Assembly: GCA_946539475.1 (NCBI GenBank)
Contig: CAMNHM010000100.1
Coordinates: forward strand, 1-9,595
Direction: 5' to 3'
DNA from: an uncultured Prevotellaceae bacterium
GTDB taxonomy: Bacteria; Bacteroidota; Bacteroidia; Bacteroidales; Bacteroidaceae
DNA length: 9,595 bases
In this document: positions 1-9,595 of the stretch, piece by piece
Numbering within the stretch: the first letter of the stretch is position 1
Layout of the letters: each line of letters opens with the position of its first letter
The notes under the pieces: generated by a model
The model's input: only the letters and a program-made list of their open reading frames with translations
Databases searched by the model: none
What the model was told of the DNA's origin: nothing
Position numbers and translations under genes: made by a program

Positions 1-442
1 CCTTGATGAACGTGGCGACGTTCTTGTTGGAGATGACGGTGCACTCGTACTCCTTGACGCCGAGTATGGACTCGTCGACGTGGATCTTGAGGTCGCCCTT
101 GACCTTGCACTGACAGCCCAGGCGCCAGTGGTTCTTGATCTCCTTACGGGTGAAATGGGACTTCTCTGAGTCGAGGATCTCTCCCCCACCCTCGAGCACC
201 TGCACCTTGCACTGTCCGCAGCTGGCCTTTCCGCCGCATGCCGACGGCAGGAAGATGCCGTTCTGGTTGAGCGTTGCCATGAGGTTGTTGCCCTGTGGCA
301 CGTTGAGCACGCGGTCGCCGTTGACGGTGATATTGACATTGCCCGACGGCGAGAGATACTTACGTGCTACGAGTAGTACGACGACGATGGCGAGGATCGT
401 CACGAGGAATACTAGGATGCTGTAAAGAATAAACTGTACCAT
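1..442 (-). CDS. nqrF: Na+-translocating NADH:quinone reductase subunit F, N-terminal part (cut by window edge)
   Basis: NqrF is the NADH-oxidising entry subunit of the Na+-pumping NADH:quinone oxidoreductase; it passes electrons from NADH through FAD to a 2Fe-2S centre on the cytoplasmic side. Translating the minus strand from ATG at 442 gives 147 codons and no stop before the edge. Residues 3-26 form one hydrophobic helix, the usual NqrF membrane anchor. Residues 35-127 form a plant-type ferredoxin domain with C69, C75, C78 and C110 as likely cluster ligands (motif CGGKASCGQC, then a distal C); C112 is a nearby extra cysteine. The numbering is within one residue of the Vibrio cholerae protein. 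The FAD- and NADH-binding domains, roughly 260 further residues by family length, lie outside the window. The gene is last of the visible operon, 21 nt after nqrE, with a good ribosome binding site. Identity is very secure; completeness cannot be judged. Confidence 0.96.
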   Translation of the reverse strand, partial: MVQFILYSILVFLVTILAIVVVLLVARKYLSPSGNVNITVNGDRVLNVPQGNNLMATLNQNGIFLPSACGGKASCGQCKVQVLEGGGEILDSEKSHFTRKEIKNHWRLGCQCKVKGDLKIHVDESILGVKEYECTVISNKNVATFIK

Positions 443-463: not shown

Positions 464-1090
464 TTAGATGTTAAGACCCGAGAAGCACATCATGGCCATT
501 GCCATGAGTCCTACGGTGATAAAGGTGATGCCGAGTCCCTGCAGAGGCTTGGGCACGTCGCAGTACTGCATCTTCTCGCGGATGGCTCCCAGCGAGACGA
601 TGGCCAGCGTCCACCCGATGCCCGAACCGAGCGCATAGACCATAGCGTCCCAGACGCTGGTGATGGCCTGCGTGTTGGAGGGATCGAGTAGTATGCGCTG
701 CTGCATGAAGAGCGATGCTCCCATGATGGCGCAGTTGACGGCGATGAGTGGCAGGAAGATGCCCAGTGCGGCATAGAGCGACGGTGAATATTTCTCGACG
801 ACCATCTCCACGAGCTGCACGATGCCGGCAATGACGGCGATGAAGAGTATGAACGACAGGTAGCTCAGGTCGACGCCCTGGATGAGGCAGTCGGGGCCCA
901 GCACCTTTGTCTGCAGCAGATAGTCGACGGGGACGGTGACGAAGAGCACGAACGTCACGGCCATACCCAGCCCGAGCGATGTCTTCACGGTCTTCGACAC
1001 TGCCAGATAGGAGCACATGCCGAGGAAGAAGGCGAAAATCATGTTGTCGACGAAGATCGACCTGAAAAATAGACTTATTGCGTGTTCCAT
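464..1090 (-). CDS. nqrE: Na+-translocating NADH:quinone reductase subunit E
   Basis: NqrE is an integral membrane subunit of Na+-NQR that, with its inverted-topology paralogue NqrD, holds a 2Fe-2S cluster in the middle of the membrane and passes electrons from NqrF towards the FMN of NqrC. The 208 residues match the family length and are almost entirely hydrophobic, consistent with six membrane helices. Two cysteines sit exactly where the Vibrio cholerae cluster ligands are: C26 (in [12 protein letters not shown]) and C120 (in [10 protein letters not shown]). The ATG at 1090 lies 3 nt after the nqrD stop, and its AAGGAG site (1100-1105) is inside the last codons of nqrD, so the two are probably translationally coupled. 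Identity is secure; RnfA/RsxA is the paralogous alternative, excluded by the surrounding nqr genes. Confidence 0.97.
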
Positions 1091-1093
1091 AAC

Positions 1094-1717
1094 TTATTTC
1101 TCCTTATAAAAGTATGCACGATGTACCCAAATCACAATACCTACGAGGATGAGGGCCATAGCGGGCATGGTCATCATACCATTGTTGAGGTAGCCGGCTT
1201 CGTAGGCTCCGTCGGGAATGATCTGGAAGCCCAGGAGTGAGCCGCGCCCTAAGAATTCGCGGACTGCTCCCACGATGACCAGGATCATGGCGTAGCCCAG
1301 GCCGTTGCCTATTCCGTCGAGGAACGAGGGCCACGGCTTGTTCTGCATGGCGAACGCCTCCAGGCGTCCCATCAGGATGCAGTTGGTGATGATCAGTCCG
1401 ACGTAGACCGACAGCTGCACGCTGACGTCGTAGACGTAGGCCTTGAGCACCTGGGAGACGATGGTGACGAGCGCTGCCACTACCACCAGCTGTACGACGA
1501 TGCGTATGCGGTTGGGGATGGTGTTGCGCAGGATGGAAATGATCACGTTGGAGAAGGCGGTGATGACCGTCACTGCCAGTCCCATAACGATGGCAGGCTT
1601 CAGCTGGCTGGTGACAGCGAGTGCCGAGCAGATGCCAAGCACCTGCACGAGGATGGGATGGTCGAGGTTGAGCGGATTGGTCAGTACCTCTTTGTTCTGT
1701 TTACTAAATAATGCCAT
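1094..1717 (-). CDS. nqrD: Na+-translocating NADH:quinone reductase subunit D
   Basis: NqrD is the partner of NqrE in the membrane core of Na+-NQR; together they bind the intramembrane 2Fe-2S cluster and are part of the Na+ path. The 207-residue product is of normal length with about six hydrophobic segments. C30 (in LGICSALAV) and C113 (in TNCILMGRLE) match the cluster cysteines known from Vibrio cholerae (29 and 112), offset by one residue. The family stretch around residues 131-160 (FLDGIGNGLGYAMILVIVG, then the REFLG motif) is intact. The ATG at 1717 is the natural start; no Shine-Dalgarno sequence precedes it. Instead an array of AT-rich heptamers begins 5 nt upstream, which may keep the initiation region unstructured (inference). 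RnfE is the paralogous alternative, ruled out by context. Confidence 0.97.
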   Translation of the reverse strand: MALFSKQNKEVLTNPLNLDHPILVQVLGICSALAVTSQLKPAIVMGLAVTVITAFSNVIISILRNTIPNRIRIVVQLVVVAALVTIVSQVLKAYVYDVSVQLSVYVGLIITNCILMGRLEAFAMQNKPWPSFLDGIGNGLGYAMILVIVGAVREFLGRGSLLGFQIIPDGAYEAGYLNNGMMTMPAMALILVGIVIWVHRAYFYKEK

Positions 1718-1759: not shown

Positions 1760-2599
1760 TTACTCTGCTAACGGCTTGTCGTCGCAGCAGCTGGCGGCTG
1801 TCTTCTCACCTTCGCAGCAGTCGGGGGCAGCTTTCTCACCTTCGCAGCAGTCGGGGGCAGCTTTCTCACCTTCGCAGCAGTCGGAGGCCGTCTTCTCACC
1901 TTCGCAGCAGTCGGAGGCAGCTTTCTCACCTTCGCAGCAGTCGGAGGCATGTCCATCACAACAGGAGTCTGATGTGGAGGAAGACTTAAAATAGGTGATG
2001 GCTGCTGCTTTCAGGCCAACCTTCAGCATGTCGTTAACGCCATTGGAAGTCAGCGTGGCACCCGTCACGCAGTCGACCTGCGTCTCGGGGTCCTCCACTT
2101 TCTTCACGACCGAAAGTGCCACATCGCCATTGGCAAAGACCTTCTTGCCAATAAATTTCTCCTGCCAAGCCTGAGAATCCTTAATCTCAGCACCCAGGCC
2201 AGCCGTCTCACTCTCATGGTTGAAATAGGCACCATAGACTGTGGGCGTGTCTTCACCATGAATAGCGATAAAGCCACTGATTCCGCCCCAGAGACCCATA
2301 CCCTTGAGGCTAAACACCATGATCTCCTCGTCATTGACAAGACAGGCATAGGCTTTCTGACCTTCGAGGTCGATCTCGGCTTTCACCACTTCGGCATATT
2401 TAGCCTCGGCAGCAGCATCGTCCAGACCGCGGAGATTGAGCGAGTTCAGGATCTGCTTCTTCACGTCGAGCTCTACGTTAGCCTCCTGCCTGCTCTTGAG
2501 AGCCGACGACACGAAAGCCAGCAGAAACGCTACGACGACAACCAGTATCGCGCTATATATAATAATGTACGCGTTAGAATTCGTATTTAGCTTACTCAT
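1760..2599 (-). CDS. nqrC: Na+-translocating NADH:quinone reductase subunit C with a repetitive Cys-Cys tail
   Basis: NqrC carries a covalently bound FMN and relays electrons from the NqrD/NqrE iron-sulphur cluster to NqrB; its flavin domain lies on the periplasmic side, anchored by an N-terminal helix. Here residues 11-31 are that helix. Residues about 95-202 form the FMN-binding domain, including WGGISGF (104-110), ETAGLGAEI (131-139) and the flavinylation motif D176-C-V-T-G-A-T182, in which T182 is the expected phosphoester-linked residue. The odd part is residues 206-279: a Ser-rich joint (SSSTSDS) and then seven CC pairs at 213, 221, 231, 241, 251, 261 and 271. The middle five are in decapeptide repeats of the form (S/P)DCCEGEK(A/T)A; the first and last are diverged. 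The tail has 14 of the protein's 16 cysteines and is acidic. The family normally ends soon after the FMN domain. The ATG at 2599 overlaps the nqrB stop by 4 nt (ATGA) and has AGGAGGT 5-6 nt upstream. Identity is secure; the role of the tail is unknown. Confidence 0.96.
   Translation of the reverse strand: MSKLNTNSNAYIIIYSAILVVVVAFLLAFVSSALKSRQEANVELDVKKQILNSLNLRGLDDAAAEAKYAEVVKAEIDLEGQKAYACLVNDEEIMVFSLKGMGLWGGISGFIAIHGEDTPTVYGAYFNHESETAGLGAEIKDSQAWQEKFIGKKVFANGDVALSVVKKVEDPETQVDCVTGATLTSNGVNDMLKVGLKAAAITYFKSSSTSDSCCDGHASDCCEGEKAASDCCEGEKTASDCCEGEKAAPDCCEGEKAAPDCCEGEKTAASCCDDKPLAE
1801..1950. repeat. Five-copy 30-bp in-frame tandem repeat encoding the NqrC Cys-Cys decapeptides
   Basis: Five consecutive 30-bp units start at 1801, 1831, 1861, 1891 and 1921. 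Each holds the invariant plus-strand core TTCTCACCTTCGCAGCAGTC. Units differ only at a few positions: one G/A change that turns Pro into Ser, and a linked block giving Lys-Ala (AAA GCT) or Lys-Thr (AAG ACG). Diverged partial units flank the array on both sides (about 1774-1800 and 1951-1974); the one encoding the first CC pair uses TGT TGT, while the perfect units use TGC TGC. Thirty is a multiple of three, so gain or loss of a unit keeps the nqrC frame open. The near identity suggests recent expansion or homogenisation. Confidence 0.95.
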
Positions 2600-3753
2600 T
2601 TTGTACCTCCTCTCTTCATTCGTTTCGATACATTGCGCTCCACGACGAAATGGTCGATCGTGGGAGCAAACATATTCATCAGCAGGATGGCGAGCATCAT
2701 ACCCTCAGGATAACCCGGATTGAGAACGCGGATGACGATGGCCATCACGCCAATCAGGGCTCCGTAGATCCACTTGCCAGTCTCGGTGCGAGCCGATGTC
2801 ACGGGATCGGTAGCCATGAAAACGGCACCAAAGGCAAAGCCGCCGAGCAGGAGATGCTCGTACCAGGGGATGGGCGTCTGGCCAAGGGCTGCAAAGAGTG
2901 CTGCCGTCAGGGCTCCTCCTGCGAAGACGCTCAGCATCGTCTTCCAGGAAGCGATACCCATCACGAGCAGGATCAGGGCTCCGATAGCAATGGCAACGAC
3001 CGACGTCTCGCCTATCGATCCGGGTATGAAACCTGTGATCATCTGGCAGAGCGAGACGTCAGGCAGCGCACCCTGACCGACAACAGCCAGCGGTGTTGCC
3101 TGCGTGAAGCCGTCGACGAGGGTGTTGCCCAGTCCACATATCTGCTCGTCGGCCACCCAAACCTTGTCGCCGCTCATCATCGAGGGATAGGCAAAGAAGA
3201 GGAAGGCACGACATACGAGTGCGGGATTGAAGATATTCATGCCTGTACCGCCGAAGATCTCTTTGCCGATAATCACAGCGAAAGCCACGGCGATGGCAAG
3301 TATCCACAACGGGCAGTTGACGGGAATAATCATCGGGATGATGATGCCCGATACGAGGAATCCTTCCTGAATCTCCTCACCCTTCCACTGCGCCCAGGCA
3401 AACTCGATGCCCAGACCTACTATATAGCTGACCAGGATCTTGGGCAGCACAGCCAGGAAACCGTAGAAGAAGATGCTTAGGAAGGAGGCCGACTCCAACG
3501 TTCCTGCTGCCAGGTAGTTCTGATAGCCAACGTTGTACATACCAAAAAGCAATGCAGGCATCAATGCCAGCACCACCATCGACATGATGCGCTTCGAATC
3601 GATGGCATCATGGATGTGCACACCTGTCTGCGACGTCCGGTTCGGGACGAAGAGGAAGGTATCGAAGCCGTCGAAGAGGGAGTGCAGGGCGTGGAGCTTG
3701 CCATCCTTCTCGAAGTTCGGCTTTATCTTGTTGAGGTAATTTCTTAAAAACAT
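2596..3753 (-). CDS. nqrB: Na+-translocating NADH:quinone reductase subunit B
   Basis: NqrB is the largest membrane subunit of Na+-NQR. It holds a covalent FMN and a riboflavin, takes electrons from NqrC, and is central to quinone reduction and Na+ translocation. The product is 385 residues with many hydrophobic segments after residue 55. Family marks visible are GGTGMNIFNPAL (168-179), the flavin attachment motif D214-G-F-T-Q-A-T220 with T220 as expected FMN-bearing residue, FMATDPVTSA (312-321), and GYPEGMMLAILLMN (347-360) close to the C-terminus. RnfD shares several of these but lacks the long cytoplasmic N-terminal stretch seen here (residues 1-55). The length is a little below that of Vibrio cholerae NqrB. 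ATG at 3753 follows nqrA by 41 nt and has no Shine-Dalgarno site, only the AT-rich leader common in Bacteroidota. The stop overlaps the nqrC start as ATGA. Confidence 0.97.
   Translation of the reverse strand: MFLRNYLNKIKPNFEKDGKLHALHSLFDGFDTFLFVPNRTSQTGVHIHDAIDSKRIMSMVVLALMPALLFGMYNVGYQNYLAAGTLESASFLSIFFYGFLAVLPKILVSYIVGLGIEFAWAQWKGEEIQEGFLVSGIIIPMIIPVNCPLWILAIAVAFAVIIGKEIFGGTGMNIFNPALVCRAFLFFAYPSMMSGDKVWVADEQICGLGNTLVDGFTQATPLAVVGQGALPDVSLCQMITGFIPGSIGETSVVAIAIGALILLVMGIASWKTMLSVFAGGALTAALFAALGQTPIPWYEHLLLGGFAFGAVFMATDPVTSARTETGKWIYGALIGVMAIVIRVLNPGYPEGMMLAILLMNMFAPTIDHFVVERNVSKRMKRGGTK
2605..2611 (-). promoter_or_regulatory. Shine-Dalgarno site of nqrC
   Basis: The minus strand reads AGGAGGT with 5 nt before the nqrC ATG at 2599. 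It lies within the last codons of nqrB (RGGTK), so nqrC translation is probably coupled to that of nqrB through the ATGA overlap. Confidence 0.7.
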
Positions 3754-3794: not shown

Positions 3795-5159
3795 TTACGA
3801 ATTCTCCTTTCGCAGATTGTCGAGTCCCTCCCTGACGATGCGCTGTAGCTCGAGCTTTGAAGAGTCGACGAACTCTGCCAGCGCAAAATCCTCGGGGCTG
3901 ACCTCGTAGATGCCCAGTTGCTCCATACGGTCGATATCGCCCGTGATGATAGCCTTGATAAGGTATTCGCCGTAGATATCCATGGGCAGCACACGATCGT
4001 ACTCGCCACTCATGATCATGTGGCGCTCGCCGCCCTTGATACGGGCGTCGAGGGCATAGCGACGCTTGCCCTGCAACCAGGAAAAATAGCTGCGACTGAC
4101 GGAGAACTGTTTCAGGCGAGGCATGATCCAGCCTGCCAACTCGTCGACATCATCGCCCTCGGGAATAACGGTCAGCTCAGAGCTGTGAGCACCGAGGTAG
4201 CCGTCCTTCGTCGTCTGGCGCCCAGTCAGCACGTTGCCGTTGATGATGCGCACGTGGTGCGACTCGTCGTAGCTATTGGCAAGCAGCGTCTGTAGCTCCT
4301 GTCCAACGAGCATCTCGACGTGGCAGGGCTTTTTCAGCTCGCTGCCGCAGAAGGCCACAAGTCGGCGCAGGTCTACACGACCCGTGTTAAACAGGCGACC
4401 GATGAAAAGCACTACCGTCGGGTCGCCGACGGTCCACACCACTTCACCCTTGTTCACAGCGTCAGTGTGGTTCACCTGTACGCCGACATTGCCGGCAGGA
4501 CACTTGCCGTCGTAGATGGTCAGATCGACAAACTGCTCTACGCCGCGCTGTTGCAGCACCGCCTGGAAATCGGGCTGTATGCCCAGTCCGAGATGCACCT
4601 TCGCAATCTTCGACAACGCCAGCAGGCCCGTCACGAAGTCTTCCTCCTGCCCCTTCACCTCGAACTCGAAGCGACAAGCGAGTGGCTTATCCCTCAGCGC
4701 AGAGACGAAGATAGCCTTAGGAAGCACAGAAGGATTGGTAGAGACAGCGTATGGCAACTGATTGATGTATCCGAAGATACCGGCATCAAGCAACGACTGA
4801 AGGACCGCCTTCCCGTCCATTGCCGACACATCACGCTTGCCATAGTCCACATACGTCTGCTGCTGGTCGGCCTCAACCTTCACGCAGAGCACTTTCCTGC
4901 GTTCACCGCGCTCAACTGCTGTCACACGACCGCTGACGGGCGAGGCAAACTTCACTTCGGGATACTGCTTGTTCACAAACAGCGCATCCCCCGCTTTGAC
5001 CACATCGCCCTCCTTGACCACGACCTTCGGAGTCACTCCCTCGAAATCGTCGGGCACTAAAGCATAATGCCCACTCGATTTAAGGCTGATACGCTCCTCG
5101 GAAGCACTGCCCTTCAGGCGAATGTCTAAGCCCTTGTGTAGCTTTACTAGATTTGCCAT
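3795..5159 (-). CDS. nqrA: Na+-translocating NADH:quinone reductase subunit A
   Basis: NqrA is the largest soluble subunit of Na+-NQR, attached on the cytoplasmic face, and is linked to the ubiquinone and inhibitor site together with NqrB; it carries no iron-sulphur or covalent flavin centre. The 454 residues match the family length. Residues about 1-95 form a biotinyl/lipoyl-like barrel (GDVVKAGDALFVN at 51-63, FASPVSGRVTAV at 71-82). The conserved core CPAGNVGVQVNH (220-231), TVGDPTVVLFIGRLFNTG (243-260) and the C-terminal SPEDFALAEFVD (421-432) are typical of NqrA. RnfC is related but would have ferredoxin-type cysteine clusters, which are absent. This is the first gene of the operon: the ATG at 5159 lies about 43 nt downstream of a good promoter -7 box. 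No Shine-Dalgarno sequence is seen; the leader is AT-rich. Confidence 0.97.
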   Translation of the reverse strand: MANLVKLHKGLDIRLKGSASEERISLKSSGHYALVPDDFEGVTPKVVVKEGDVVKAGDALFVNKQYPEVKFASPVSGRVTAVERGERRKVLCVKVEADQQQTYVDYGKRDVSAMDGKAVLQSLLDAGIFGYINQLPYAVSTNPSVLPKAIFVSALRDKPLACRFEFEVKGQEEDFVTGLLALSKIAKVHLGLGIQPDFQAVLQQRGVEQFVDLTIYDGKCPAGNVGVQVNHTDAVNKGEVVWTVGDPTVVLFIGRLFNTGRVDLRRLVAFCGSELKKPCHVEMLVGQELQTLLANSYDESHHVRIINGNVLTGRQTTKDGYLGAHSSELTVIPEGDDVDELAGWIMPRLKQFSVSRSYFSWLQGKRRYALDARIKGGERHMIMSGEYDRVLPMDIYGEYLIKAIITGDIDRMEQLGIYEVSPEDFALAEFVDSSKLELQRIVREGLDNLRKENS

Positions 5160-5280: not shown

Positions 5281-5312
5281 CTTGCCTATGTCAATTTTTT
5301 CTTGTACTTTTG
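5281..5312 (+). promoter_or_regulatory. Promoter of the tamB-family gene (Bacteroidota type)
   Basis: CTTG (5281-5284), one mismatch from the -33 box TTTG, is followed after 20 nt by TACTTTTG (5305-5312), an exact fit to TAnnTTTG. The start of transcription would be near 5319, leaving a leader of about 24 nt. It lies back to back with the nqr promoter; 48 bp separate the two -33 boxes, and I see no clear operator-like palindrome between them. Confidence 0.75.
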
Positions 5313-5333
5313 CACATCAAACAAAGAACTCCC

Positions 5334-5340
5334 AGGGAGG
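5334..5340 (+). promoter_or_regulatory. Shine-Dalgarno-like site of the tamB-family gene
   Basis: AGGGAGG lies only 2 nt before the ATG at 5343, closer than the usual 5-9 nt. It still marks this ATG as the likely start, because the frame encodes a basic N-terminus and membrane anchor immediately after it and there is no nearby alternative ATG in frame. Confidence 0.5.
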
Positions 5341-5342
5341 CG

Positions 5343-8300
5343 ATGAAAAAACTGAAGCACATCATCAATTGGACGATCTGGAGCCTGCTGGCACTCTACC
5401 TGCTACTCATCGTCCTCATCCACGTGCCTGCCGTTCAGGGGTGGCTCGGTGGAATCATTGCTGATGCGGTAGGCAGGAAGCTGGGCACGGAGGCCAGTGT
5501 AGGACGCGTCGACCTGGGCATGTTTAACCGTCTGATTATCGACGACGTAGCAATCCTCGACCACCGCCAGCAGACGATGCTCGAGGCGGATCGGCTGGCA
5601 GTGAAGGTGGAGCTGATGCCGCTCTTCGACGGGAAGGTGCACATCTCTTCAGCACAGCTCTTCGGAGCCCGGCTCAGGCTGTCTCGCGACAGTGCACTGG
5701 CAACGCCGAACTATCAGTTCGTCTTGGACGCCCTCTCCTCAGGCGACAACGACGACAGCTCTCCCCTTGACCTACGTATCGGCTCCCTTATCGTCCGGCG
5801 CCTGTCAATGACCTATGACCAGCAGGACGCCCCCAAGACGCCCGGCAGGCTGAATATGCGACACCTGAGCGTCAGCGACGTCAGCGCTCATGTCTTACTT
5901 CGCACTTTAACGAATGACTCATTGAATATCAACGTAAAACGCATCTCGTTAAAGGAGCATTCAGGACTCCTGCTCCGACAGCTGTCGTTCAAGCTTGAAG
6001 CCAATCGCCACGAAGCGACGCTGAACAGCCTCGCCCTTCAGATGCCCCACTCTACCCTTGATGTCGACACACTCGCCGTCAACTTCCAGCTCGACAGCCT
6101 GGCAAATTCGCTCACCTATAGCTTGCCTGCTGTTCGAGCCCGTGTGGACTTGACCGACCTACGCCCAATATTGCCAGAGCATTTCCCCACCAGTCAGACC
6201 CTCGACCTCCAGACGTCACTCAGCGGAAACGCGCGACAGCTGCGATGCCCCGCACTTTCTGTAGCAACCACCGACCAGGCGCTCGTGCTGCGGGGCTCAG
6301 GCGACTACGACGCCGACGGCACGTGGAAGGTATCCGTCAGTCAGCTGGACGTTGCGCCAAGCCTCATCAGCGTCGTGCTACAGACGATGCCCGAACTGCC
6401 CGAGCAAATCGCCCGACTAGGAGGCATCTCGTTTGTAGGCCAGGCAGAAGGACTCCCCGACGGTCCCCAGATAGCGGCTAAGGGAACCCTACATACGGGA
6501 ATAGGTACCATCGACCTACAGGGGCAACGGTCAACAGACGCTGACAGGTGGATGGCTCATGTCGAAACAGACAGCCTCGACCTGAAGGCCCTCACCACGA
6601 ACAACATCCTGGGGCTTATTGAGGCACGCCTCGACCTTAGTGCACTCGATGGTGCCGTCAGCGTGCAAGGTGAGGTGCCCAGAATCGACGTCAACGGATA
6701 CACCTACAGCGGAATCTCACTCGACGGCACCTACAGGACAACAGACATCGCAGGAAAGCTACACGTCAACGATCCCGCCCTGCAGGCAGACCTCGAAGGC
6801 AGCTATGGCAAGAATATCCGCCTGACGGGCGTCATCAGCCACATAGCCCCTCAGGCGCTCTACCTCAGCGACCGCTGGGGGCCCGCCACCTTTGCAGCCA
6901 TCGTCGATGCCGACCTGACGGCCACCTCACTCGACGATGCCCAAGGCACGATCGACCTCGACGACTTCTACATGAGCGTCAACGACTCGACACGCTATCA
7001 CCTCGACAACCTACACCTGCGGTCGGGCTATGAAGACCAGCGCCACTACCTGCGACTGAGCAGCGACTTCGGCGAGATTCAGCTAAAGGGGCGCTTCGAT
7101 TGGGTCACGCTGCCACAGAGCTTCACCGCCATCCTGCCTCAGGCAGAGAGTAAGCCGCAGCGACATGGCGACAACGACTTCTCACTCTCGATGCAGCTCA
7201 ACGACAGCCAATGGATGCAGCACCTACTGGGTATCGACCTCGACCTAAGCGGGCAGCTCGATCTAGAAGCCGACGTCGACGACAACGAACGGACAATCGA
7301 CGTCCATGCCTCGATTCCTTCGTTCAGCTATGGCGACAATAACTTCCGTGATGCCTCACTACAGCTCTCCACACTTGGCGACAGCACCTTGTGCGACGCT
7401 CGGCTGACACGCCTCTCCGACAACGGGCGCCCACTCCATGTGAAGCTCAACGCCCAAGTGGCCGACAACGAGATCCAGTCGGCAATCACCTTCTCCAACG
7501 ACGGGCGCGACGGAGGGGCCATCAATGCCATCACGAAGACATACCGCAACGATGAGGGACAGCGCGAGACGCACGTACGACTGATGCCCTCCACCATCGT
7601 TCTGCGCGATGCCGTCTGGGAGCTGGAGCCATGCGACATCATCTATGGCGACAAGCGGTTGATGGTCGACCAGTTCACCCTCCATCACGCCGACGAACAC
7701 CTTATCATCGACGGACTGGCATCCACATTGATGCGCGACACACTCTTAGTCGACATACAGGGCATCGACGTACAATCGGTGCTCGAACTGGTCAACTTCC
7801 ACGCCGTAGACTTCGACGGGAAGGCATCCGGACGCGCCTATGTGACGCATGCATTCAGCACCCCCGAGGCATGGGCCGACATCGCCGTCGACCATTTCCG
7901 CTTCCAACAGGCACCGATGGGCACCCTTGAGGCACACGCCACGTGGAACAACGATGAGGGCCAGATCGACCTTGATGCAGCCATCGACGACGGCGCAGAA
8001 GCACAGACCTTCGTCGACGGATTTATCTCGCCACGCAGGAAAGAGATCGACCTGGGAATCCGGGCAAGGGGGACGAGCATCGGTTTCGTACACGATTTCA
8101 CCGAGAGTTTCGTCAGCCATATCAGCGGACATGCCTACGGCGACGTCAGGCTCTTCGGTCCGCTGAGCCATATCGACCTTGAGGGCACCCCTATCGTCGT
8201 CGGACAGGCAACGATAGCGCCACTGGGCACGACCTACAGCATTCAGGGCGACACCATACACCTCTCGGAGGGCTCCATCGCCTTCAGGGACTTCCACGTC

Positions 8301-9595
8301 TACGACCGAGAAGAGCATCCTGCTACGCTCAACGGAGCACTCCACCACTACAACTTCAAGAACTTCACATTCGACATCGTGGCACAAGCCGAGGGGCTGC
8401 TGGCCTACGACTTCCCCGAGCTCGAAGACGGCAGCACCATCGGAGGAACCGTATGGGCAAACGGACAGGCGGTGATGACCGGCAGGCCAGGCGAAGTAAC
8501 CTTCGACTGCGACGTGACGCCAGCACCAGGCTCTTTCTTTGTCTATAATGCCGCCAACCCCGATGCCATCAGCCAGCAGCACTTTATCACCTGGGGAACG
8601 GCAAAGGACGACGCCGACGTCGAAGAGGCAGCGCCTCAGACACCCCCCAACAGCACGGCAACACGCAGCGACCTAAGACTCAACCTGCGCATCAACGCCA
8701 CCACCGACGCCACGCTGCGCCTACTCATGGACCAGCACTCGGGCGACTATATCACCCTCAACGGAACAGGAACACTGCGCGCCTCCTACTACAACAAAGG
8801 CCCCTTCCAGATGTTCGGGACATACGCCGTGGAGCGAGGCACCTACAGCATGACCATACAGAATATCCTGAAGAAGAACTTCCTCTTCCAACCCGGCAGC
8901 TCGCTCGTCTTCGGAGGCGCCCCCCTACAGGCAGCACTCAACCTGAAGGCACAATACACCGTCAACGGAGTGTCGCTATCCGACCTAGGACTGGGCAATT
9001 CCTTCACGAGTAACACCATACGCGTAAACTGCCTGATGAACATCCTCGGGACGGCAGGCGAGCCACGCGTGGAGTTCGACCTTGAGATGCCTACCGTCAA
9101 CAGCGAGGAACAGCAGATGATACGCTCCATCATCGCCAGTGAGCAAGAGCTGAACCAACAGGTCGTCTACCTCCTGGGTATCGGGCGCTTCTACACACAA
9201 GGTGCCAACAACGCCACGACGCAGCCTTACGGGCAGACGGAGCTAGCTATGCAGAGCCTGCTCTCAGGCACGGTTTCCTCGCAGATCAACGGGCTGCTCT
9301 CGCAAGTCATCAAGAACGACGACTGGAACTTCGGCGCCAACATCTCGACAGGCAACGAAGGATGGCACAACGCTGAGTACGAAGGACTTGTAAGCGGGCG
9401 AATGCTCAACAACAGGCTCCTCATCAACGGACAGTTCGGCTACCGTGACAACGCCACGCAAGCAACGCCCTCGTTCATCGGCGACTTCGACATCAGCTAC
9501 CTACTCACACCTAACGGAAGCCTTGCGCTGAAAGCCTACAACCAGACCAACGACCGCTACTTCACCCGCTCATCGCTCAACACGCAGGGCATCGG
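5343..9595 (+). CDS. tamB: TamB-family (DUF490) translocation and assembly module / envelope lipid-transfer protein, C-terminus cut by window edge
   Basis: TamB proteins are very long inner-membrane-anchored proteins that span the periplasm as a hydrophobic-grooved beta structure. They are linked to outer-membrane protein assembly with TamA-like partners and, in newer work, to phospholipid transport to the outer membrane. The frame stays open for 1417 codons to the edge. Residues 1-8 are basic (MKKLKHII) and 9-29 form one membrane helix. The bulk is rich in Asp, Leu, Ser and alternating beta-strand patterns, as in this family (AsmA/TamB-like repeats). The C-terminal TamB domain covers about residue 1000 onwards, with GDYITLNGTG (1134-1143), the QNILKKNFLFQPGSS segment (about 1169-1183) and NDDWNFGANISTG (1325-1337), followed by a YRDN...FIGDFDISYLL pattern typical of Bacteroidota homologues. 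An acidic, Pro/Thr-rich loop at about 1089-1110 looks like a linker. By family length only a few tens of residues are missing. The partner gene is not in the window. Confidence 0.92.
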   Translation, partial: MKKLKHIINWTIWSLLALYLLLIVLIHVPAVQGWLGGIIADAVGRKLGTEASVGRVDLGMFNRLIIDDVAILDHRQQTMLEADRLAVKVELMPLFDGKVHISSAQLFGARLRLSRDSALATPNYQFVLDALSSGDNDDSSPLDLRIGSLIVRRLSMTYDQQDAPKTPGRLNMRHLSVSDVSAHVLLRTLTNDSLNINVKRISLKEHSGLLLRQLSFKLEANRHEATLNSLALQMPHSTLDVDTLAVNFQLDSLANSLTYSLPAVRARVDLTDLRPILPEHFPTSQTLDLQTSLSGNARQLRCPALSVATTDQALVLRGSGDYDADGTWKVSVSQLDVAPSLISVVLQTMPELPEQIARLGGISFVGQAEGLPDGPQIAAKGTLHTGIGTIDLQGQRSTDADRWMAHVETDSLDLKALTTNNILGLIEARLDLSALDGAVSVQGEVPRIDVNGYTYSGISLDGTYRTTDIAGKLHVNDPALQADLEGSYGKNIRLTGVISHIAPQALYLSDRWGPATFAAIVDADLTATSLDDAQGTIDLDDFYMSVNDSTRYHLDNLHLRSGYEDQRHYLRLSSDFGEIQLKGRFDWVTLPQSFTAILPQAESKPQRHGDNDFSLSMQLNDSQWMQHLLGIDLDLSGQLDLEADVDDNERTIDVHASIPSFSYGDNNFRDASLQLSTLGDSTLCDARLTRLSDNGRPLHVKLNAQVADNEIQSAITFSNDGRDGGAINAITKTYRNDEGQRETHVRLMPSTIVLRDAVWELEPCDIIYGDKRLMVDQFTLHHADEHLIIDGLASTLMRDTLLVDIQGIDVQSVLELVNFHAVDFDGKASGRAYVTHAFSTPEAWADIAVDHFRFQQAPMGTLEAHATWNNDEGQIDLDAAIDDGAEAQTFVDGFISPRRKEIDLGIRARGTSIGFVHDFTESFVSHISGHAYGDVRLFGPLSHIDLEGTPIVVGQATIAPLGTTYSIQGDTIHLSEGSIAFRDFHVYDREEHPATLNGALHHYNFKNFTFDIVAQAEGLLAYDFPELEDGSTIGGTVWANGQAVMTGRPGEVTFDCDVTPAPGSFFVYNAANPDAISQQHFITWGTAKDDADVEEAAPQTPPNSTATRSDLRLNLRINATTDATLRLLMDQHSGDYITLNGTGTLRASYYNKGPFQMFGTYAVERGTYSMTIQNILKKNFLFQPGSSLVFGGAPLQAALNLKAQYTVNGVSLSDLGLGNSFTSNTIRVNCLMNILGTAGEPRVEFDLEMPTVNSEEQQMIRSIIASEQELNQQVVYLLGIGRFYTQGANNATTQPYGQTELAMQSLLSGTVSSQINGLLSQVIKNDDWNFGANISTGNEGWHNAEYEGLVSGRMLNNRLLINGQFGYRDNATQATPSFIGDFDISYLLTPNGSLALKAYNQTNDRYFTRSSLNTQGI

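Follow-up and report, generated by a model that had tools for sequence, protein, structure and literature searches.

The stretch of DNA analysed here, referred to as the window, spans 9,595 nucleotides of a contig from an uncultured Prevotellaceae bacterium (CAMNHM010000100.1, assembly GCA_946539475.1). It holds nqrA to nqrF, all encoded on the minus strand and each with an NCBIfam match: nqrA (3795..5159; TIGR01936, 438.7 bits), nqrB (2596..3753; TIGR01937, 478 bits), nqrC (1760..2599), nqrD (1094..1717; TIGR01939, 293.4 bits), nqrE (464..1090; TIGR01940, 278 bits) and the N-terminal part of nqrF (2..442; TIGR01941 over residues 6-147, 186.1 bits), which is cut at the window end. The nqrC gene encodes subunit C of the Na+-NQR, a protein of 279 amino acids with a TM helix, an FMN domain and a Cys-Cys tail, and is identified by TIGR01938, by PF04205 and by its closest solved relatives, which are NqrC chains; its place in the nqrABCDEF operon is that of NqrC. 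The gap between nqrC and nqrD measures 42 nt in the window and 3 nt in loci L001, L003 and L009. Within it, a 7-bp AT repeat (TAATTAG) is present in about five copies at 1723-1756 (TRF score 61), and AT-rich spacers resembling this gap are also found in L002 and L007. Positions 5310-9593 encode a very large protein (1428 aa, open) divergent from nqrA, which we take to be probably TamB-like. Relatives of this large gene, forming one cluster, are located upstream of nqrA in 17 of the 19 loci compared, the same place as in the window.

The core of the protein is that of a regular NqrC. It passes the curated TIGR01938 cut-off (148.7 bits against 144), and FMN_bind (PF04205, 53.9 bits) is the sole Pfam family above its cut-off. 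The fold also agrees, with model residues 8-209 aligning to residues 7-254/255 of the 257-residue V. cholerae NqrC. The flavinylation motif DCVTGAT (residues 176-182; 2054..2074, minus strand, from the translation) lies in the segment DCVTGATLTS (residues 176-185) and includes the FMN threonine, bearing out the intact FMN domain described in the initial annotation. The homologous threonine carries the FMN in V. cholerae NqrC, and NqrC shifts between NqrD/E and NqrB, according to excerpts from PMC10739449. That NqrC lies on the periplasmic side is established. Outside the tail the window protein has two cysteines, Cys86 and Cys177. In this group the usual form of the motif is DCVTGAT: the site of Cys177 (2069-2071), which precedes the FMN threonine by five residues, holds Cys in 193 of the 216 NqrC rows described below and Val or Ala in the others, and 25 more distant NqrC-like proteins have SGGT, SGAT or SGST at the flavinylation site.

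Past the conserved fold, as delimited by the alignment to V. cholerae NqrC and by pLDDT, the window protein continues with a C-terminal tail of residues 210-279 (1763..1972, minus strand) containing seven CC pairs (14 Cys). The expectation that NqrC normally ends soon after the flavin domain holds for V. cholerae, whose chain stops where this tail starts. Translation of 1760-2599 on the minus strand (279 aa) places the pairs at residues 213, 221, 231, 241, 251, 261 and 271, exactly as initially annotated. The bounds first given for the tail need correction, since residue 206, its supposed first residue, begins at 1984 and the interval 1760-1974 encodes residues 210-279 plus the stop. Similarly, the last six pairs are indeed 10 residues apart in the window, but the first interval is 8 and spacings elsewhere are mostly 7-9. 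Five 10-residue units of the form DCCEGEK[A/T]A[S/P/A] make up residues 220-269 (1793..1942, minus strand; translation and TRF) and correspond to a 30-bp DNA repeat, which TRF reports as a tandem array at 1782-1949 with a score of 259, a period of 30 and 90% matches. The tail is predicted to be disordered, with mean pLDDT values of 40-54 in 10-residue blocks from residue 211, and homology supports a periplasmic location for it. Its description as acidic applies to the window protein and to 46 of the 55 tails compared below, but the mean net charge is merely -3.6. Across tails, CC pairs are separated mostly by 5-7 hydrophilic residues (8 in the window protein). A close relative, P0002 (95% identity), has the same seven pairs.

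Tails of this kind recur among NqrC relatives. A protein search gave 7601 matches among 8000 scored candidates, of which the best 120 were examined, and a contig search matched 314 stretches, of which the best 80 loci were examined. Pooling and deduplication produced 216 NqrC rows, in which the tail has at least two CC pairs in 100 cases, a single pair in 4 and no pair in 112; both source lists are biased towards tailed proteins because the query was tailed. Collecting homologues and counting CC pairs after the flavin domain, which the initial annotation had proposed as a check, thus found at least two pairs in 100 of 216 rows. Tailed proteins carry 2-11 pairs, and their repeat units are highly dissimilar. 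The frequency is lower in broader samples. Among 398 genomes of the same genus there were 217 NqrC matches at E<=1e-50, and of the 93 examined, mostly the best-scoring, 16 have at least two tail CC pairs (14 of 33 loci returned by the genome search and 2 of 60 additionally retrieved). An even draw of 198 genomes across the order gave 42 NqrC matches at E<=1e-20, one being the tailed genome G001 itself, and no tail CC was seen in the 25 readable of the 29 other loci given. A single-strain oddity is rejected by the 100 tailed rows and their unlike units. An assembly artefact is unlikely, as the tails appear in MAG records titled from several projects; every tailed record named in the contig listing, however, is a MAG or 'uncultured' entry, and L015 and L017, its two NZ_ entries, are tailless. 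A second, divergent nqr operon in genome G014 (L097) encodes an NqrC with 58% identity and no Cys tail, and G014 has another tailless NqrC. Taken together, the tail is a real, lineage-labile and apparently selected add-on to a known enzyme subunit.

The arrangement of the cysteines was analysed in the 55 of 100 tails that remained after removal of those more than 75% alike. These tails contain 243 CC pairs, compared with 81.9 expected (maximum 102) when whole tails are shuffled and 75.8 expected (maximum 99) when residues are shuffled within the array regions, although such shuffles overstate independence, as the units of one tail are duplicates and the tails share ancestry. In the 55 array regions, CCC occurs 0 times (19.4 in shuffled sequences), CxC 0 times (92.1), CxxC 12 times (71.6) and single Cys 63 times (335). 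Nor does CCC occur in any array region when the full set of 100 tails is considered, on which ground trinucleotide slippage was rejected as the origin of the array. The distance from pair to pair is 7, 8 or 9 residues in 145 of 188 intervals. The 10-residue spacing pointed out in the initial annotation accounts for just 9 of the 188, five of them from the window protein, and is a feature of this lineage. The residue before the pair is Asp in 130 of 243 cases, and the one after it is Lys in 104 of 243. Since CC is kept, CCC and CxC are absent, and units and spacing vary, the conserved element, judged from these sequences, is the CC pair and neither the spacing nor the unit. The same grammar, an excess of CC with no CCC or CxC and few CxxC, suggests that each dithiol is a discrete unit.

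The cysteines are also better preserved than the residues around them. In 34 disjoint alignable tail pairs, 311 of 402 aligned Cys positions agree, against 891 of 1524 for other residues, a difference for which the Fisher value of 1e-12 treats positions as independent, which they are not, and to which about one-third of the pairs contribute poor alignments at <=50% identity. At the codon level, six locus pairs show amino-acid changes in 5 of 59 Cys columns and 37 of 271 other columns, a small set in which three pairs are built from the same three loci. Between L003 and L004, all six Cys codons are unchanged and the amino acid is altered at 17 of 36 other codons. In 14 of 19 arrays both Cys codons are in use, so not all of these 14 are fresh copies. 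The paired cysteines are apparently kept by selection.

The history of gain and loss was followed on a FastTree phylogeny of the NqrC core with the tail excluded. The label of at least two CC pairs requires 28 changes on this tree, and at least 10 are unavoidable given the well-supported branches. When L005 is compared with L052, five blocks in the middle of nqrC are 62-77% alike, one tail block, which holds the length difference, is 58% alike, the final two tail blocks are 97 and 96% alike, and the first ten blocks after the tail are 75-97% alike. Gain and loss probably proceed in part through recombination, and chimeras in short contigs may add to the apparent number of events (P0065 and P0054 are odd-looking). 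The tail is clearly labile by this comparison; because of recombination and possible chimeras, the number of independent inventions is uncertain.

The array appears largely, though not exclusively, in NqrC. Tail-only searches were performed against 5.8 billion proteins, with sight of proteins of similar total length and within E-value cut-offs. The tail of P0074, with 11 CC pairs, returned 10 matches, nine NqrC proteins and one snail membrane protein that is probably convergent, and its top match in 16 genomes was the NqrC of G009. The tail of the window protein (P0001) returned P0001 and P0002, the only two proteins matched by the complete DCCEGEK array. Neither tail matched another bacterial protein type among the similar-length proteins searched, and a general tag common to many proteins was rejected for this reason. 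A screen of the retrieved loci for CC pairs, however, identified two non-NqrC proteins with similar CC stretches, contrary to a restriction to NqrC. One, on the reverse strand of L101 (G009) at about 1516, is a small protein with a signal-like N-terminus whose mature part opens with CC units like those of NqrC tails (KCCDKEKKECCKAEKKEK). The other, on the reverse strand of L122 (G006, which has a tailed NqrC) in a frame from base 1, has three CC pairs eight and nine residues apart (LCCDSGPLCCDSDSLCCDT) and is presumably a cysteine-desulphurase-like protein. The remaining CC-bearing frames look like frames across repeats or on the wrong strand. A further low-complexity array in a similar genome, a tandem AKDSTATEK-type repeat without Cys, is located on the reverse strand of L100 at about 676 in a protein that we assume to be amidase-like.

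Related subunits and neighbouring genes were compared in the same way. A check of 18 loci gave eight RnfG-like and two short FMN-binding proteins, with an RnfD-like neighbour from five loci and nothing from three, and three short proteins came from elsewhere; CC is absent from these eight RnfG-like and five short FMN-binding proteins of the same genomes, and the same tail on RnfG was rejected on the eight. Among 11 tailed and 8 tailless loci, in some of which single nqr genes were missed or miscalled, no partner gene recurs exclusively next to tailed operons. Upstream of nqrABCDEF, the large divergent gene is present at 9 of 11 tailed loci and at 8 of 8 tailless ones; what lies downstream varies in both groups.

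In composition the arrays are 23.8% Cys, rich in Lys, Asp, Glu, Ser and Ala, and contain one aromatic residue (Phe) in 2308. His shows no enrichment next to Cys (15 of 53, with 16.9 expected), an argument against a specific mixed Cys/His site, and no Met adjoins a Cys (0 of 20, with 6.1 expected). Cys replacements in 20 disjoint close pairs (Ala 5, Ser 5, Gly 4, Arg 3, His 2, Glu 2, and Asp, Thr and Asn 1 each) show no strong preference for another ligand. The likely oxidation state of the thiols was approached by searching for VKOR, DsbA and DsbB in panels of relatives that are for the most part incomplete MAGs. VKOR gave no match in any of 47 genomes (18 tailed, 29 tailless); in a panel of 30 (18 tailed and 12 tailless), DsbB gave one partial match at 22.2 bits against a cut-off of 22.1, and DsbA had no match above the cut-off and one below it. 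In 14 control genomes VKOR was positive in 3, DsbB in 6 and DsbA in 8. The Bacteroides control was negative, so the lack of these enzymes is probably general in the order. As no clear DsbA, DsbB or VKOR was detected in these panels, the tail thiols are probably reduced and not oxidised by the usual route, and the stable disulphides suggested at first are less likely.

The reading that we prefer, while giving it rather less than an even chance, is that the tail provides dithiol clamps that bind soft metals and guard the pump. The tail would then form a flexible array in the periplasm, made of separate vicinal dithiol clamps attached to the FMN subunit of a Na+ pump, in which each CC pair would bind one thiophilic ion through two thiolates. 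Cu(I) would be the first choice, with Zn, Ag, Cd, Hg or As(III) possible. Tethered near the periplasmic NqrC FMN, the array could act as a local metal sink that shields exposed pump cofactors and thiols. The number of clamps may be tuned through tandem duplication, and the tail may be gained or lost as metal exposure changes, a link to exposure that is a guess. This reading draws on the strict pair grammar, the better-kept Cys, the Cys-rich array nearly devoid of aromatics and the likely free thiols, and a metal sink is in keeping with the pair grammar, with thiols that are probably reduced, with the disorder and with a pair number that varies freely. Metallothioneins, the yardstick here, have CxC motifs, high Cys content and few aromatics. 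By this analogy the composition of the arrays would be as expected for a thiolate metal-binding peptide. The NQR is itself metal sensitive, with an IC50 in V. alginolyticus of 20 nM for Ag+ and 1 uM for Zn2+ and NqrF cysteines as the targets (excerpts from PMC12682751), and Ag+ lowers NADH-driven succinate formation in P. bryantii by at least 80% (PMC8516057). Lack of oxygen makes copper more toxic to E. coli, and proteins aggregated by Cu(I) are enriched in Cys and His (both from PMC9040851). Against the guard, the usual mixed Cu/Zn ligands are missing (no His enrichment, Met never adjacent), and the Ag+-sensitive thiol lies in NqrF (PMC12682751), a cytoplasmic subunit (PMC10739449) away from the tail. 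The heavy-metal RND marker TIGR00914 gave no separation of tailed from tailless genomes, being above its cut-off in 3 of 47 (two tailed and one tailless). Most examined relatives are tailless (16 of 93 with at least two CC pairs), and metal guarding alone does not explain this tailless majority.

An unlikely alternative is a redox device, in which the dithiols exchange electrons with the NqrC FMN and hand them on to thiol partners in the periplasm or to metals or oxidants. Insect thioredoxin reductase, with its C-terminal vicinal cysteines, is an analogue of such an arm. The tether to the flavin domain and the preservation of vicinal pairs in place of single Cys agree with this role, as do MerA, whose carboxy-terminal vicinal Cys pair is essential (excerpt from PMC3466566), and the movement of NqrC between NqrD/E and NqrB (PMC10739449). 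On the other hand, up to 11 pairs without fixed spacing exceed the needs of a relay, no gene recurs beside tailed operons only, and clear DsbA/VKOR-type partners were not detected. The earlier proposal of a relay gains no specific support from Cys177, beside the FMN threonine: Cys at this position is about equally common in tailed (94 of 100) and tailless rows (95 of 112), and a relay through it was rejected for lack of association. In the form of a multi-site arm that takes electrons off the NqrC FMN to soft metals or periplasmic thiol partners, the idea is highly doubtful; if true, it would make the tailed Prevotella Na+ pump a tunable metal reductase or source of reductant, in which the copy number of the repeat would fix how many clamps there are.

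Repeat expansion of a disordered C-terminus by neutral or nearly neutral change, its exact content being irrelevant, was also raised in the initial annotation and is unlikely, at least alone. The tail is absent in most examined relatives and often lost or gained, its length and spacing are free, and the window has a plain tandem 30-bp duplication, all as such drift would predict. It does not account for the zero CCC, zero CxC and threefold excess of CC in the 55 array regions, for Cys being better kept than neighbouring residues, as between L003 and L004, or for the same pair in dissimilar unit sequences. Quite unlikely is a thiol buffer or oxygen/electrophile trap, whose reduced dithiols would consume oxidants when the anaerobe meets air. 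The anaerobic host group, the probably reduced thiols and the charged residues flanking CC (the Asp and Lys preferences given above) favour it, whereas a sacrificial role needs no pair grammar, CxC being absent and CxxC rare though equally suitable.

It is very improbable that the tail supplies metal or iron on the spot when the intramembrane [2Fe-2S] cluster of NqrD/E matures or is repaired. That cluster adjoins NqrC in the electron path (PMC10739449) and a tethered store would be close to it. Against this, Fe-S clusters are assembled in the cytoplasm, the eight RnfG-like subunits examined have no such tail and most examined NqrC are tailless. Regulatory codons, whereby the Cys-rich end of nqrC slows ribosomes at low cysteine and couples nqrD translation to sulphur supply while the peptide is inert, are very improbable as well: cysteine-dependent leader peptides exist and the Cys codon pairs lie just upstream of nqrD (42 nt in the window; 3 nt in L001, L003 and L009), but a brake should favour CCC runs, which are never present, the gap varies in length and sequence, and the arrays retain a soluble charged design.

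A recurring, apparently selected dithiol array on the periplasmic subunit of the NQR would connect energy conversion in respiration with metal stress or thiol stress, in a family that makes up about 40% of the rumen microbiota and in which the NQR of P. bryantii drives NADH-to-fumarate respiration (excerpts from PMC8516057). The natural series of 0 to 11 clamps on a near-identical pump would offer a test of whether a protein can carry its own metal guard.

Compared with known systems, the window protein shares its fold, TM helix and flavinylation motif with the solved NqrC of V. cholerae, V. harveyi and Parabacteroides distasonis, and differs from the V. cholerae chain, which ends at the tail start (model residue 209 corresponding to 254/255 of 257). 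P. bryantii likewise has a Prevotella NQR, one working with fumarate reductase, but its NqrC, given as 23.2 kDa in the same excerpts (PMC8516057), is too small for a long tail, as judged from that mass alone. The literature searched, with subscription journals mostly outside it, yielded no description of a cysteine-rich or vicinal-Cys NqrC; the tail makes this form of NqrC new, and the enzyme subunit itself is known. The arrays resemble metallothioneins in their high Cys content (24%), few aromatics and hydrophilic character, and differ in that CxC never occurs (0 against 92 expected) and in being anchored to a membrane pump. Identity with metallothioneins was rejected by motif, with 0 CxC in the 55 array regions, and no metallothionein family is among the Pfam matches of the window NqrC up to E=1. 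Identity with mercuric reductase was rejected as well, FMN_bind being the sole Pfam family over its cut-off, and MerA is a flavoprotein of a different fold. It nevertheless has, like the NqrC tail, a vicinal dithiol at the C-terminus of a flavoprotein (PMC3466566), which in MerA is one pair, whereas in NqrC it is an array.
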